From Salinispira pacifica (GTDB lineage: Bacteria; Spirochaetota; Spirochaetia; DSM-27196; Salinispiraceae), in NCBI RefSeq assembly GCF_000507245.1, contig NC_023035.1, forward strand, positions 1,899,501-1,963,500: DNA of 64,000 nucleotides. Reading direction: 5' to 3'. Shown piece by piece: positions 33,047 to 58,484 of the stretch (position 1 is the stretch's first letter; every line of letters begins with the position of its first letter). The notes beneath the pieces are model-generated. The model was not told the origin of the DNA and did no database searches. It was given only the letters and a program-made list of their open reading frames with translations. A program made the position numbers and the translations under genes.

Positions 33047-35655
33047 TCACTCTTTTAGATGTTTCTGCATGCGGCTGAGATGATTGAGGGCTTCAATGGG
33101 GGTGCAGGTATTCAGATCCAGATGTTTAATCTCCTGGAGTACCATTTCATCCTGCCCGAAAAGTCCCCGCTGAAATCCCCCTGAAGCCATTTTGCGGCTT
33201 CCTTTGCGGTTGCTGCTGTTTGCAGATATGTTCAGCCCTGAACTGCTCTGCTGTATTTGGTCCAAAATCTCACCGGCACGAAAAATCACTTCATCGGGAA
33301 TCCCGGCTATCTGAGCCACATGAATCCCGTAGGAATTATTGGAGGGCCCCTCTATTACCTTGTTGAGAAAAAGAATCTCACCGTCTTCTTCACTCACCTG
33401 CAATGAAAGATTTACCATGCCTTTGTGTTTCAAGTCGGACAATTCATGAAAATGGGTGGCGAAAAACGTGCGGCACTGCAGATGGTCAAGAATATAATCG
33501 CTCACCGCCCAGGCTATGGAAAGTCCGTCCTGGGTACTTGTACCCCGCCCCACCTCGTCCATGATCACAAGACTCTGGCGGGTTGCCTGCCTGAGAATAT
33601 GAGCGGTTTCATTCATTTCCACGAGAAAAGTGGACTCACCTCTGGCAAGATTATCCGAAGCTCCCACTCTGCAGAAAATCCGGTCGGCAATACCCAGTCT
33701 GGCCGACTCTGCGGGAACGAAACTGCCGATCTGTCCCATTAAAAGAATCAAGGCGTTTTGCCGCAGGAACGTACTTTTTCCGGCCATATTCGGACCGGTG
33801 ATGAGATGAAAATAATCGTCGCCGTTTCCGCTGATCCGGGTGTCGTTGGGAACAAAGGCGGAGTTTTCCAGAAATGCTTCCACCACCGGATGCCGCCCCC
33901 CTGAATTTCCATTAACTGCTTTTCGATCATTTCAGGGCGGGTGTACCCTTTCAGAGTGGCCTGATATGCAAAACTTTGGATACAGTCAAGAGCCGCAAGA
34001 ATTTCCCCGGCCTCCTGAAGGACCGGCAGCTGCTCCCCAACCTTGTTTCTGAGCTGAATAAAAAGTTCCTGCTCCCTCTGCATACGCTGGTCCCGGGAGC
34101 TGCTTATTCGCTGCGCAAGCTCCTGCAGTTCAGCGGTGGTATATCTGTCGGCATTCACCAGACTCTGGCGGGGTTCAAAATGACACGGGATATTTTTTAC
34201 CTGGGCCTTGGACACCTCCAGAAAATATCCCACCACCTTGTTGAATTTAATTTTCAGGTTTCCAATTCCGCTGAGCTCTTTTTCTCTTGCAAGATATGCA
34301 TCCAGCAAATCCTGGGCGTTAGACTCCGTGTCTGTCAGTTCGTCAACCAGCGCATCATATCCCCGGCGAATGATCCCACCCTCATTGATTTGGGTGGGAG
34401 GATCATCAAGAATTGCATCGCCGATCATATCCGCCGCCCGCTTCAGCTCCGGTATGGAACCGGCATTAAATATTTCGGCCAGGGGACTGTGATGCAGCAG
34501 TTCGTACAGATTCAGCTGACTGTGAAGTGAGTTTTGGATCGCCTTCATATCTTTAGGATGGGCTTTCTCCATGGCTACCCGGGCAGAGAGGCGCGGCAGA
34601 TCAAGTGCCTTCCCGAGAATATCCCGGCAACGGTTCAGGAGCAGTTGATCATGGTAAAGCAGCTCAACAAAATCCTGTCTCCGTCTGATTTCTGATACAT
34701 CAACAAGGGGTTCGAGAATCCATTGCTTGAGAAGCCGTCGCCCCATGGAGGTTCGGGTCTGATTGATAATGGTAAACAAACTCTGATTCTCACTGCCGTC
34801 TGAGGTATTCCGAATCAATTCCAGATTTTTCTGGGAATTATTATCGATGAGCATGTGATCATCATCCTGGACAACCCTGAGAGAATTGATGTGGCGGATC
34901 TTTCTGCCGGCGTTTTCCTCCACATACTGGAGAAGCGGGCTCAGTGAATCAAGCTCGGGATTGGAAGGTTCAAGGCCGTAGGATTTCAAATTCTGAAGTG
35001 ACATGATATCGCAGAGGAGACCGTATCCGTTGGAACCGCTGTAATGCCAGTCCGGAAAGCGATTAATGATGAGACTGCTTCGCCCAAGCTCTTGGTTCAG
35101 CCAGGGGTAGGATTGAAAAAGAGTTTCCTGAATCAGTATTTCACGGGGATTGTACCGGGCCAGTTCTCTCAAGAGACCGCTTTTCATATCAGCGGAAGCG
35201 AAACTGTTAAGAATCAGATTTCCCGTGGAAACGTCGATGCATGAAAAGCTTAAACGACCGGGATCTGATTCTGATGCGGAGAAACTGGCAATAAAATTGT
35301 GGTCGCCGGTCTTCAGAAACTCTTCGTCAAAAACTGTACCCGGCGTCAGGATCTCCACGACCTGACGTTCTGCGATACCCTTCCCTCCCTCAGGCATTTT
35401 CGTCTGCTCGCAAATGGCAACCTTTTTACCGGCTTCAAGCAGCTTGGGAATATAGGAACTGGCAGCATGAAAGGGAATTCCGCACATGGGAATCCCGTTC
35501 CGGGCAGTCAGGGTCAGGCCAAGAACTCTGCTGGCCTCTTTTGCATCTGTTTTAAACATTTCATAAAAATCACCAAGACGAAAGAAAAGTATCTTGTCTC
35601 TGTGGCTGGATTTAATCCGTTCGTACTGCTGCATCATAGGGGTTGAATCTGACAT
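33047..35655 (-). pseudogene. mutS: DNA mismatch repair ATPase MutS, reading frame broken once in a G-run
   Basis: MutS recognises base mismatches and small loops. The 5' frame (35655 to about 33900) encodes the mismatch-binding domain with FYEMF (Phe-x-Glu, GDFYEMFKTDAKEA), the connector, core and clamp domains. At a G6 run (C6 on the plus strand, 33896-33901) the frame shifts; the other frame continues through the ATPase domain with GPNMAGKSTFLRQ (Walker A), DEVGRGTSTQDG (Walker B) and FFATHFHEL to 33047. One extra G gives MEIQGGRHPVVEAFLENSAF, the family consensus, and a protein of about 869 residues. The site GGGGGGC would also fit -1 frameshifting. Confidence 0.88.
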
Positions 35656-35765: not shown

Positions 35766-36260
35766 ATGGAACACTTCTGCTTCAAACGGGAATCGGAAAC
35801 CCTCTATCTGCGGGGAAGCGGCAGGCTTACTTCGCAGAACAGCGAGGAATTTAAAAATACGGTTTTCAGTTTCCTGAACACACAGGCATTGCGGAAAGTC
35901 CTGTTTGATCTTTCCCAGTGCGACTATATGGATTCCACCTTTCTTGGAGTTTTGGTGGGAATATATAAAAAAATGAGAGGGCACGGCGATTTCTGCATCG
36001 TCAAACCCTCGGAAGAAGCCACCCAGCACCTGAAAAGCATGGGTATGGACAAAATCATTACGATCCAGATGGAAATGACCGATTTCCCCGGAGACATGGG
36101 CAGTTGCCCCAACATACCTACCAAAGACGCCGAATCAATTCTTCATGCACACAAAAACCTGATGGAACTTTCCCAGACCAATGCACGTAAATTTTCTCTT
36201 CTCGCAAGCGTTCTGGAGCGTCAGATTCAACACAGCGGCAGCAGCAAAAATCAGTGCTGA
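35766..36260 (+). CDS. STAS-domain (anti-sigma factor antagonist-like) protein
   Basis: The first 100 residues match the STAS fold of SpoIIAA/RsbV proteins: LYLRGSGRLTSQNSEEFKNT, then KVLFDLSQCDYMDSTFLGVL, where the Ser of DST is the usual phosphorylation site, and a helix ending in AGE-like GHGDFCIVKPSEEA. The remaining 60 residues form a helical tail. In partner switching such proteins bind an anti-sigma kinase; no kinase or phosphatase gene is adjacent, so its partner is unknown. It lies in the opposite orientation between skp and mutS, and its stop is nine bases before a small mobile element. Confidence 0.8.
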   Translation: MEHFCFKRESETLYLRGSGRLTSQNSEEFKNTVFSFLNTQALRKVLFDLSQCDYMDSTFLGVLVGIYKKMRGHGDFCIVKPSEEATQHLKSMGMDKIITIQMEMTDFPGDMGSCPNIPTKDAESILHAHKNLMELSQTNARKFSLLASVLERQIQHSGSSKNQC

Positions 36261-36269
36261 CACAATTGC

Positions 36270-36411
36270 AGTGCACCGAAGCTTGTGAAGCGTAATTTTT
36301 CTATTCAACACAACCATGGATTTAGTGTCGCTAATATTCACACCCCAACCAGTGGCGCCTTGAAAACTTCAAATTTCAAAAAGTGATGCTTTTCACAAGC
36401 TTCGGTGCACT
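36270..36411. mobile_element. MITE-like element, copy A (about 142 bp)
   Basis: The ends are inverted repeats, AGTGCACCGAAGCTTGTGAA on the left (36270-36289) and its exact complement on the right (36392-36411), with weaker pairing continuing inward. There is no coding frame. The ends match those of the insertion sequence at 52800-54196 in about 18 of 20 positions, so it is probably mobilised by that transposase. The right end lies eight bases from the skp stop codon. I see no target-site duplication. Confidence 0.82.
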
Positions 36412-36419
36412 GTATACAA

Positions 36420-36953
36420 TCAGCGGGCGGTAGCCCTCAGCCGTTCCAGAACCAGATTGGTGATGTCCACTTCCTGACTCCACCACAGCAGTTTATCGTC
36501 GTTGGAGGATACCACCACAGTGAACCCGTTCGCCTCGGCCACGAAACTGATTGCACTTTGAAGTTCGCTGAGAAAGGTTTCAGAATTCAGCAGGCGCTGC
36601 TGACGATCATATAGCTGGCGCTGCTTGATCCGCTGAAAGTCCTGAATATACTGCTGCTTTTCGTAGATCTCTTCATCCAGGCGAAGGGCTTCATCCTCGT
36701 CCCCGTCTGACTCGGCGTCCAGTTTTTGCTCCTGAAGCCGCCGCAGGATGGCCACGTGGCCGTCCAGTTCCTGCTGGATCTCTTCTTTCAGATTTTCCAG
36801 CTCCCTCACTGCCGTGGAATCGGCGAAAAATGAATTGTACACTCTGGTAATGTCCACCACTCCCACGGTTGTCAGCTGCTCGGCTGCGATGCCCGATGCT
36901 GCGAATATAATCAGGATTGCCGCAATGGCGAATTTTCTAATGGTTTTCTCCAT
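36420..36953 (-). CDS. skp: Periplasmic chaperone OmpH/Skp-like
   Basis: Skp escorts unfolded outer-membrane proteins to BamA. The protein starts MEKTIRKFAIAAILIIFAAS with a signal peptide cleaved near GIAAEQ, then VGVVDITRVYNSFFADSTA (family start is VDxxxVF), a long coiled-coil arm and the C-terminal region. The frame is open to 37055, but the ATG at 36953 follows GGAGGGA and gives the signal peptide; the product is 177 residues. It lies directly downstream of bamA, as in T. pallidum (TP0326-TP0327). Confidence 0.88.
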   Translation of the reverse strand: MEKTIRKFAIAAILIIFAASGIAAEQLTTVGVVDITRVYNSFFADSTAVRELENLKEEIQQELDGHVAILRRLQEQKLDAESDGDEDEALRLDEEIYEKQQYIQDFQRIKQRQLYDRQQRLLNSETFLSELQSAISFVAEANGFTVVVSSNDDKLLWWSQEVDITNLVLERLRATAR

Positions 36954-52408: not shown

Positions 52409-52755
52409 GGGGGTGTTCCGGATTCGACTGGAGCGGATCCAGGGATACGTTGCAGGTGGAGCGCCATCTCCTGATTGGCAACCTTTATAACTGCTAACGA
52501 TGCAGATTATGCAATGGCAGCCTAAATAGTGCTGTCACGGACACTCAGGGTGCAGTCCTGAATCCTGAACTGTCTGTTAGAAACCAGGACTTGCTTTCTG
52601 TCGGGCTTTGACGGCAGGAGGGACTTTTTCAAAGACCGGATGTGGAAAGGCCTGTCGACCGGCCTGAAGCGTCTTAAAAATCAAATGCGTTGACTAAACC
52701 TGTAGACGCGTATTTCTTACCCTTCAGGACGCGGGTTCAACTCCCGCCACCTCCA
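52409..52755 (+). ncRNA. ssrA: Transfer-messenger RNA (tmRNA)
   Basis: The gene begins GGGGGTGTTCCGGATTCGAC and ends with a T-arm (GCGGGTTCAACTCCCGC) and CACCTCCA. The 5' GGGGGTG pairs with 3' CACCTCC as a seven-pair acceptor stem with a G-U at the third pair, the alanine identity element. CCA is not encoded. The tag frame starts at GCT 52493 and stops at TAA 52523-52525; it reads ANDADYAMAA, ten residues ending with the Ala-Ala degradation signal. It rescues stalled ribosomes with SmpB, encoded just upstream. Confidence 0.97.
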
Positions 52756-52799: not shown

Positions 52800-52822
52800 A
52801 GTGCACCAAAGCTTGTAAAAAA
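52800..52822 (+). repeat. Left terminal inverted repeat of the IS
   Basis: Twenty-three bases, exactly complementary to 54174-54196. Confidence 0.9.
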
Positions 52823-52868
52823 ACACAGCAAATTCAAGCAGCAGTAATTCTTTTCCGGTGTATGGTTT

Positions 52869-54065
52869 ATGAACACATTACAACCATACATCACCAGACT
52901 GCTGACCCAAATCAGCACAAATTCTCTTGAATTTACTCACCACAGCCCGGTCCCCCACTGCTCAAACCCCCATTGCCCCCGGTTTGCAGACCAGAAACCC
53001 CATGATCAGTCATGGTTCAGGTTTCATGGATGCTACTTCACCAAAGCCTTCGGCAGGGTTCCGCGTTATCGCTGTCAGGATTGCGGCAAGACCTTTTCCC
53101 TCCAGACATTCCGCATGGATTACTACGTGAAAAAGCCGGTGGACTACATCCAGCTGATTCGCCAGCTTGTCTCTTCCAGCGGACAGGGCAACATGACCCG
53201 TTTCACCGGTATGCGCTATGAGCAGATCCAGAACAGATACGAGCGCATCTGCCGGGTACTTCTGGCCATCCATTCTGATATGCGCAAGCTGATCAAACCG
53301 GAAGATGAGTTCGCCCTGGACGGCTTTGAATCCTTCAGCGTGAGTCAGTTCTTCCCCAACAACATCAATATCCTGGTGGGAAGCGGCTCAGAGTTGATAT
53401 ACGCAATGGGATATTCCCAGCTGAGGCGTAAAGGACGGATGACTGAAAGACAGCGGCAGAAGCGAACTGACTTAGAGCAAACCCTGGGCAAGGCTCCGGG
53501 AAATGCCGTTGAGAAATCGGTCCAGTCCATCCTTACCCACTTGTGTAAATACATGAAAGATAAAGACATACCGAATGTTACGCTGAATACCGACTATCAC
53601 AAGGCGTATGTTCGGGCCCTTTCGAAGGTGCCTGAGGGCAGGTCCCGGATACATCATCGTCAGCATTCATCCACCCTGCCGCGCACCCCGTCAAACCGGC
53701 TGTTCCCGGTGAATTATGTGGACCGGCAGTTTCGCAAAGATCAGGCGAACCACGTGCGGGAGTCGGTACAGTTCGCCCGATCTCCTGCCGCAATGATGGT
53801 GCGGCTGAGCATATATCAGATGGTTCATAATTATCTAATGCCCCGGAGGGTACGGGATCAGAGAAAAGGAAACTGGAAGACCAGAGGAGAACAGCTTGGC
53901 GTTCCGGGATGGAAGCTTCATGAGGTAATCAGAAAACACTGGGATAGGAGAGTGTTTCTGAACAAATGCAGCTTATGGGAACCTGAGAAGATGACCTGGC
54001 TGCTTGGATGGCGAAACCGGGGGATTGATTCAGGCCGCAGGCTGCCGTTTCATGTGTGGGTGTGA
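52869..54065 (+). CDS. DDE-type transposase with N-terminal zinc ribbon
   Basis: The 398-residue protein has an N-terminal zinc-ribbon (HCSNPHCPRF, then YRCQDCGKTFSLQ), a helix-turn-helix-like stretch (QGNMTRFTGMRYEQIQNRYE) and an RNase H-like core. Candidate catalytic acids are the Asp in FALDGFESF, the Asp in TLNTDYHKAY, and an Asp in NYVDRQFRKDQANHVR; the last region, ending FARS, resembles the IS1-type C-terminal motif. It is longer than IS1 (232 residues) and IS1595 proteins, so it may be a distinct group. It is intact and is the only gene in the element. Confidence 0.85.
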   Translation: MNTLQPYITRLLTQISTNSLEFTHHSPVPHCSNPHCPRFADQKPHDQSWFRFHGCYFTKAFGRVPRYRCQDCGKTFSLQTFRMDYYVKKPVDYIQLIRQLVSSSGQGNMTRFTGMRYEQIQNRYERICRVLLAIHSDMRKLIKPEDEFALDGFESFSVSQFFPNNINILVGSGSELIYAMGYSQLRRKGRMTERQRQKRTDLEQTLGKAPGNAVEKSVQSILTHLCKYMKDKDIPNVTLNTDYHKAYVRALSKVPEGRSRIHHRQHSSTLPRTPSNRLFPVNYVDRQFRKDQANHVRESVQFARSPAAMMVRLSIYQMVHNYLMPRRVRDQRKGNWKTRGEQLGVPGWKLHEVIRKHWDRRVFLNKCSLWEPEKMTWLLGWRNRGIDSGRRLPFHVWV

Positions 54066-54173
54066 CTGAACTGAAGTGTAAGAGAAGTGGCGGTCAGGGC
54101 TGGTTGTAGACGTGAAATCGGGCTGGATTCCGGATCGATTTTTCGGAGCGTATCGGCCGGATTGCGACGAAAG

Positions 54174-54196
54174 TTTTTTACAAGCTTTGGTGCACT
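54174..54196 (-). repeat. Right terminal inverted repeat of the IS
   Basis: Exact complement of 52800-52822. Confidence 0.9.
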
Positions 54197-56992: not shown

Positions 56993-57123
56993 AGTGCACG
57001 GAAGCTTGTGAAACACTGCCTTTTCTAACAAAAAACAACATATTTAGTGCCTGAAAAATACCCGACACCATCAGTATGGTTGAATTTTTGGAAATAGATT
57101 TTTTCCACAAGCTTTGGGGCACT
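56993..57123. mobile_element. MITE-like element, copy B (about 131 bp)
   Basis: The left end reads AGTGCACGGAAGCTTGTGAA and the right end is the complement of AGTGCCCCAAAGCTTGTGGA, four mismatches between them. There is no coding frame. Ends match the IS and copy A, and the interior shares TTTAGTG plus nearby bases with copy A. It lies five bases beyond the purine permease stop codon. No target duplication is evident. Confidence 0.8.
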
Positions 57124-57128
57124 GTACA

Positions 57129-58418
57129 TCAGATAAAAAATTTGATGAGCATCACCGCAGCTACAATATACGTAGCCACCGATACCTCCCTGAACTTACC
57201 AGTAAGGGTTTTCAGAATCACATAGGAGATTATTCCGAACACAATTCCTTCAGCAATGCTGTACGCCAGCGGCATCATAATGATAGTAAGGAATGCGGGA
57301 AGTGATTCGGTGATATCCTGGAAATCGATATCCTTCACCGGACTCATCATAAATACACCTACCAGAATAAGCGCAGGTGCGGTGGCGGCTCCCGGAACCA
57401 TCAGAAAGAGGGGGCTGAAGAACAGCGCCAGAGCGAAGAGCCCTGCAGTTACCAGTGCGGTGAGACCGGTACGCCCGCCTTCTTCGATTCCTGATGCACT
57501 TTCAACATAGGTGGTCACGGTGGAAGTACCGAAGATTGCACCTACTGTTGTACCGATGGCATCGGCAAAAAGAGCCTGTTTGGCCCGGGGAATTTTTCCG
57601 TCTTTTTCCAGGATTTGCGCCTTGGTTGAAACTCCGATCAGGGTGCCCACGGTGTCGAACATATCAACAAAAAGAAAAGTGAACAGTACCAGCAGCATTT
57701 CAAGACTGAGAATCTCGGTCCATTCAAACTGGAACAGAATCGGTTCAAGACTGGGCGGTCTGCGAAAGAGAGTGAATCCTTCCAGGTTTGTTACACCAAG
57801 GGGAATACCCACGACGGTTGATGCGATAATCCCCCAAAGCAGCGCACCTTTCACTTTAAATGCAAGCAGAACTGAAGATATTATCAGACCGAGCACCGCA
57901 AGGAGAACGGCAGCAGAGGAAAAGTCACCCAACTCCACCAGTACGGCAGAGTTATCGGAGATAATACCCGCGTTCTGCATTCCGATGAAGGCAATAAACA
58001 GTCCGATACCCACGGATATCGCCTTTTTAATATTGGAGGGGATCAGACTGATAATTGCTTCCCGTATGTTAAATGCGGTAAGTATCAGAAAGATAATCCC
58101 TTCCAAAAACACTGCTGTCAGTGCGAACTGCCAGCTTTTTCCCATTCCCAGAACCACGGTGAATGCAAAAAATGCATTCAATCCCATTCCGGGAGCCAGA
58201 GCGAAAGGCAGTTTTGCCCACAAGGCCATCACCAGTGTGGCCACCACTGCAGCCAGGGCTGTAGCAGTGAACAACGCAGGTGCAGGCATTCCGGTAGCGG
58301 ACAGCGTAGCCGGATTCACGGCGAGAATGTACGCCATGGTGAGAAAAGTGGTAATACCCGCCAGCACTTCAGTACGTACTGTAGTATTGTTTTTCTCAAG
58401 CTGAAAAAATTTGTTCAT
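57129..58418 (-). CDS. Guanine/hypoxanthine-type permease, NCS2/AzgA family (PbuG-like)
   Basis: The protein has 12 or so hydrophobic spans and family motifs: NTTVRTEVLAGITTFLTMAY, NPATLSATGMPAPALFTATA, FALAPGMGLNAFFAFTVVLG, SGIEEGGRTGLTALVTAGLF. This is the AzgA/PbuG-type subfamily, which imports guanine, hypoxanthine or adenine by proton symport. ATG 58418 has GGAG seven bases upstream and is preferred to 58430. It is near the guaB-purA-guaA operon but separately transcribed; substrate is not determinable. Confidence 0.88.
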   Translation of the reverse strand: MNKFFQLEKNNTTVRTEVLAGITTFLTMAYILAVNPATLSATGMPAPALFTATALAAVVATLVMALWAKLPFALAPGMGLNAFFAFTVVLGMGKSWQFALTAVFLEGIIFLILTAFNIREAIISLIPSNIKKAISVGIGLFIAFIGMQNAGIISDNSAVLVELGDFSSAAVLLAVLGLIISSVLLAFKVKGALLWGIIASTVVGIPLGVTNLEGFTLFRRPPSLEPILFQFEWTEILSLEMLLVLFTFLFVDMFDTVGTLIGVSTKAQILEKDGKIPRAKQALFADAIGTTVGAIFGTSTVTTYVESASGIEEGGRTGLTALVTAGLFALALFFSPLFLMVPGAATAPALILVGVFMMSPVKDIDFQDITESLPAFLTIIMMPLAYSIAEGIVFGIISYVILKTLTGKFREVSVATYIVAAVMLIKFFI

Positions 58419-58484
58419 TTTCAACTCCATTAATGTATTTTTTCCCCTTCTTTGCGCTATGGGGATTTGAATACGATGTTGATG

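Follow-up and report, generated by a model that had tools for sequence, protein, structure and literature searches.

The closest described systems are MITEAba12 of Acinetobacter, which is described as highly conserved, with no trend reported in its target sequence (PMC6382973), and the QMITEs of Coxiella burnetii, among which QMITE2 has repeats of 7-9 bp and a core of 113-145 bp (PMC10969869). Here, I argue that a 142-bp element of Salinispira pacifica (copy A), found in a 64,000-nucleotide stretch of its genome (the window), is very probably a non-autonomous MITE that a resident 1.4-kb IS1-like insertion sequence (IS) mobilises in trans through its transposase. That the MITE and the IS form a previously undescribed family, but one of an ordinary kind of mobile DNA, is well supported; in a term search, the S. 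pacifica genome paper (PMC4511686) yielded nothing on insertion sequences or MITEs.

Copy A spans positions 36270..36411, the canonical orientation of its family being on the minus strand, and takes up nearly the entire gap between two convergent genes. On one side is a gene for a STAS-domain protein of the anti-sigma factor antagonist type (35766..36260, plus strand), whose stop codon lies 9 bp before the element; on the other is skp/ompH (36420..36953, minus strand), whose stop codon lies 8 bp from it. An earlier note on this DNA had described an element of this length with inverted ends and no coding capacity, eight bases from the skp stop codon, and all of this is borne out. The terminal inverted repeats (left, 36269..36289, plus strand; right, 36392..36412, minus strand; each including one flanking base) are arms of 21 nt, 100% complementary with 102 nt between them, the outermost C/G pair being counted, and the list of open reading frames contains no coding frame of note that overlaps the element. 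The core of the inverted repeat, AGTGCAC-NN-AAGCTTGT, is common to every copy of the family.

If the geometry of the family is applied to copy A, the left target copy TGACACAAT (36258-36266) is followed by a 3-bp spacer TGC, the two together covering 36258..36269, and opens with the TGA stop codon of the STAS gene. On the right, at 36412..36423, a 3-bp spacer GTA is followed by the target region TACAATCAG (36415-36423), which includes the stop codon of skp (TCA at 36420-36422). As the edges of the target coincide with the two facing stop codons, neither reading frame is damaged. The target duplication of copy A has itself decayed, with 3/9 positions matching.

The pattern of the family ends occurs at 6 sites in the window (0.23 expected) and at 109 sites in the S. 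pacifica genome, the reversed control giving 0. These sites pair into about 38 MITEs, namely 10 of 131 bp, 27 of 141-144 bp and one of 169 bp, and into eight IS copies of 1395-1397 bp; the genome-wide search for further copies proposed in the earlier note hence speaks for a mobile element. The family displays what is expected of a MITE: it is short, non-coding and bounded by inverted ends, its copies are dispersed, its ends are those of the eight IS copies, and target duplications are found at the level of the family, those of copy A being decayed. A family model built from the sequences of 37 copies alone returns those same copies and a few truncated remnants, and the end pattern gave no match among viral contigs. 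The second MITE of the window (56993..57123, minus strand) belongs to the 131-bp class and lies 5 bp from the stop codon of a transporter-like gene (57129-58430, minus strand). Elsewhere in the genome, at about 1046312-1047931, there is a 1622-bp element that carries diverged versions of the family ends and is unlike the 1.4-kb IS, and at about 279307-279340 a 36-bp relic made of two end sequences that meet nearly tail to tail.

The autonomous partner in the window is an IS1-like insertion sequence of 1397 bp (52800..54196, plus strand), with a transposase reading frame of 398 aa (52869-54065, plus strand). As the earlier note had stated, its ends are those of the MITEs, about 20 bp being common at each end. 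The eight 1.4-kb copies are 94-98% identical among themselves. Beyond the ends, the MITE cores have no match in the IS, so that a simple recent origin by internal deletion of the IS was rejected. The IS stands directly behind the terminator-like stretch of the tmRNA gene (52409-52755, tag ANDADYAMAA), which ends about 45 bp before it. S. pacifica also harbours a second IS family of four copies, with a transposase about 45% identical and with ends CGCCCCAAACAATGTGGAA; one 150-bp pair of these ends is located at 3067291-3067440.

The transposase of the window has no match in Pfam; in NCBIfam it matches ISL3 and IS1 only weakly, its score for the IS1 family being 16 bits against a curated cut-off of 100. 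Four of five aligned relatives match the NCBIfam model transpos_IS1, the best at 2.1e-7, which is again below the curated cut-off; for all these scores fall under it, the element is named IS1-like rather than IS1. Residues D151, D242 and E298 do not vary among the five aligned relatives, in keeping with a putative DDE enzyme. Comparison with solved structures returned zinc fingers only.

IS and MITE also share the geometry of their targets, a 9-bp duplication with a 3-bp spacer on each side, and in both the consensus of the target flanks is symmetric, about TAANNNTTA. The duplications flanking the MITEs give 146 matches, against 106 +/- 8 after shuffling (0 of 5000 shuffles reach the observed value), and two IS copies retain a perfect duplication (9/9). 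As for gene ends, taken from gene calls made by a simple codon-usage script, 23 gene 3' ends lie at most 60 bp from a MITE and 9 of the 23 are at exactly 9 bp; under uniform placement the binomial P is about 6e-11, a figure which gauges the departure from uniformity and not its cause. MITE copies often lie 9 bp past stop codons because, given the target rule and a compact genome, targets often include stops. The stop-codon spacing at copy A is accordingly a feature of the family and a by-product of target choice.

The S. pacifica MITE was found in none of 40 related genomes searched, and relatives of the transposase are present in many of them. Likewise, none of 13 skp loci of relatives carries the element. 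The mark of an old structural element named in the earlier note, an identical sequence at the corresponding position in distant relatives, was thus not encountered. The gene mutS follows skp directly in 11 of the 13 loci; in the two genomes of the same family, the stretch following skp yielded neither mutS nor the STAS gene. The skp loci of relatives thus lack the STAS gene as well as the MITE. In S. pacifica, mutS (33748-35655, minus strand) lies beyond the STAS gene as seen from copy A. Hence the claim that the element separates skp from mutS is right in that copy A does lie between two genes that are direct neighbours in 11 relatives; the inverted STAS gene lies there too, however, and copy A alone is not what separates them.

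Taken together, the ends shared with the IS, the shared target geometry and the 13 skp loci without the element argue for a MITE that was probably mobilised in trans. The IS1-like transposase would recognise the ends common to IS and MITE, which are its putative binding sites, and would mobilise the MITE in trans; insertion would duplicate 9 bp of an AT-rich, roughly palindromic target with the 3-bp spacer on each side, and copy A would have inserted in this way in the gap between the facing STAS and skp genes. Against this reading stand the fact that copy A keeps no clear duplication and the want of any likeness between the MITE cores and the IS beyond the ends.

By analogy, an independent IS/MITE pair in a genome of the same class but another genus (G050) would lend support to mobilisation in trans. 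It comprises about 30 MITEs of 148-151 bp, many of them recent and 8 with perfect 9-bp duplications, and an IS whose transposase is 38% identical to that of S. pacifica. The duplications are of the same target type as in S. pacifica, whereas the end sequence is another one and the ends are not specially preserved. A further genome (G007) holds six MITEs of 83 or 93 bp, a 10-bp step, whose ends are like those of an IS of this group in G007. To judge by G050 and by the 150-bp pair of ends of the second S. pacifica IS, several members of the group thus have companions of similar size. With the family model, no likeness of the cores to those of the MITEs of G050, of G007 or of the second S. pacifica IS was detected.

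A peculiar feature of the S. pacifica family is the contrast between its ends and its cores. Compared in pairs, the 27 long copies differ on average by 0.557 in their cores and by 0.030 in their ends; for the ten 131-bp copies the values are 0.21 and 0.019, respectively. The ends deviate at 17/1184 sites. Length hardly varies within the family, and the cores of the long class are near-saturated though their length is fixed. Where duplications are recognisable (12 copies), they differ at 24/108 sites (22%), as against 4/192 (2%; p 2e-8) for the end arms, a comparison to be read knowing that these copies were chosen by a duplication match of at least 6/9, some of which may be due to chance, and that related copies do not contribute independent sites. 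In G050 the duplications differ by 6% and the ends by 13%, with no end preservation of the S. pacifica kind. If duplications begin identical, as the perfect cases in G050 suggest, the ends in S. pacifica would have been preserved after insertion.

This pattern is what would be seen if the MITE had come by transposition and now served the host, a putative DNA-binding protein, of the host or the transposase itself, recognising the paired ends beside genes' 3' termini, with selection keeping ends and spacing while the core drifts. Besides the duplications, the few deviating end sites set against such divergent cores speak for it, as does a core-only search, which found no copy of the 131-bp class with decayed ends. 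On the other hand, target duplications are already absent from some young IS copies, and the divergence of the cores could predate the last jump; a role in place is, all considered, unlikely. Its broader form, in which dozens of long-resident MITEs would have been co-opted as DNA-binding sites beside gene ends all over the genome, their paired ends held at near-fixed spacing while cores and target duplications drift, appears quite improbable.

Along the same line, the two size classes are 10-11 bp apart, which is close to one helical turn, and the near-constant length with its 10-bp steps might reflect a spacing rule for joining the ends within very short DNA; this is suggestive only, for a single deletion could make each step. 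Islands of direct repeats 30-32 bp apart in the core (5.8/12 matches against a background of 3.0) were set aside as weak, neighbouring spacings giving nearly equal values.

Another way in which the ends could matter is as outward promoters, their -35-like boxes, together with the target sequences, driving antisense RNA into flanking genes. A case in point would be TTCACA-17-TACAAT (36392-36420), which reaches across the right end and the target of copy A and points antisense into skp, and such pairs occur at 12 of 69 MITE ends, random places in the genome giving 3.3 +/- 1.8. AT-rich targets alone raise the number of matches, though, this null having been drawn from genic and intergenic DNA alike, and a single one of the 16 IS ends carries a pair; outward promoters are very doubtful.

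The earlier note had further proposed that the symmetric ends act as a terminator or processing hairpin for the bamA-skp mRNA, and had asked that the RNA be folded. Copy A does form a strong hairpin on either strand, its folding beating all 200 shuffles (z -8.4 on the plus strand, -7.0 on the minus strand). The fold of the MITE consensus retains only the end stem, which is invariant in sequence, so that covariation speaks neither for nor against this stem. The cores fold only mildly better than shuffled sequence (mean z -1.3 and -1.0); a conserved RNA structure in the core was rejected, for the hairpins of single copies are not borne out by pairs in the consensus or by convincing covariation.

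Despite the strong end stem, its position directly after two stop codons and the general discussion of MITE transcripts as possible terminators (PMC10969869), a terminator, processing or stabilising signal is highly improbable, for the interval 36150-36550 contains 0 sites with the G+C-rich hairpin and T-run of an intrinsic terminator, directly beyond the stem the sequence is A-rich and not T-rich, no compensatory pairs occur beyond the invariant stem, end positions 8-9 within it are mismatched in 27 of 37 copies, and Rfam returned no structured RNA element at E 1. The constraint on the ends looks like DNA sequence recognition more than paired RNA; an incidental effect of copy A on the skp mRNA may nonetheless exist.

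To sum up, to the known MITEs is added a MITE/IS pair for Salinispira pacifica, along with a parallel pair in another genus, and the preserved ends beside near-saturated cores of fixed length allow a test of the general question of what preserves the ends of old MITEs, be it renewed mobility or a role in place.

In comparison with known systems, the S. pacifica IS resembles the IS1 family in its zinc-ribbon N-terminus, in the D151, D242 and E298 residues conserved in the five relatives and in a target duplication of 9 bp, within the 8-9 bp of that family; it departs from it in its sub-cut-off scores, its weak ISL3 matches, its single reading frame of 398 aa and its length of 1.4 kb. Among the MITEs, the likeness to QMITE1 and QMITE2 of C. 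burnetii (PMC10969869) lies in ends more conserved than the core, but the sizes of these two vary widely, whereas that of the S. pacifica MITE hardly does. MITEAba12, of about 113 bp, likewise has a near-constant length, the ends of a resident IS (ISAba12) and 9-bp target duplications, with copies both with and without them (PMC6382973). End sequences and IS are others in Acinetobacter, and what sets S. pacifica apart from MITEAba12 is the near-saturation of its cores and a target consensus, TAANNNTTA, with stop codons at its edges.
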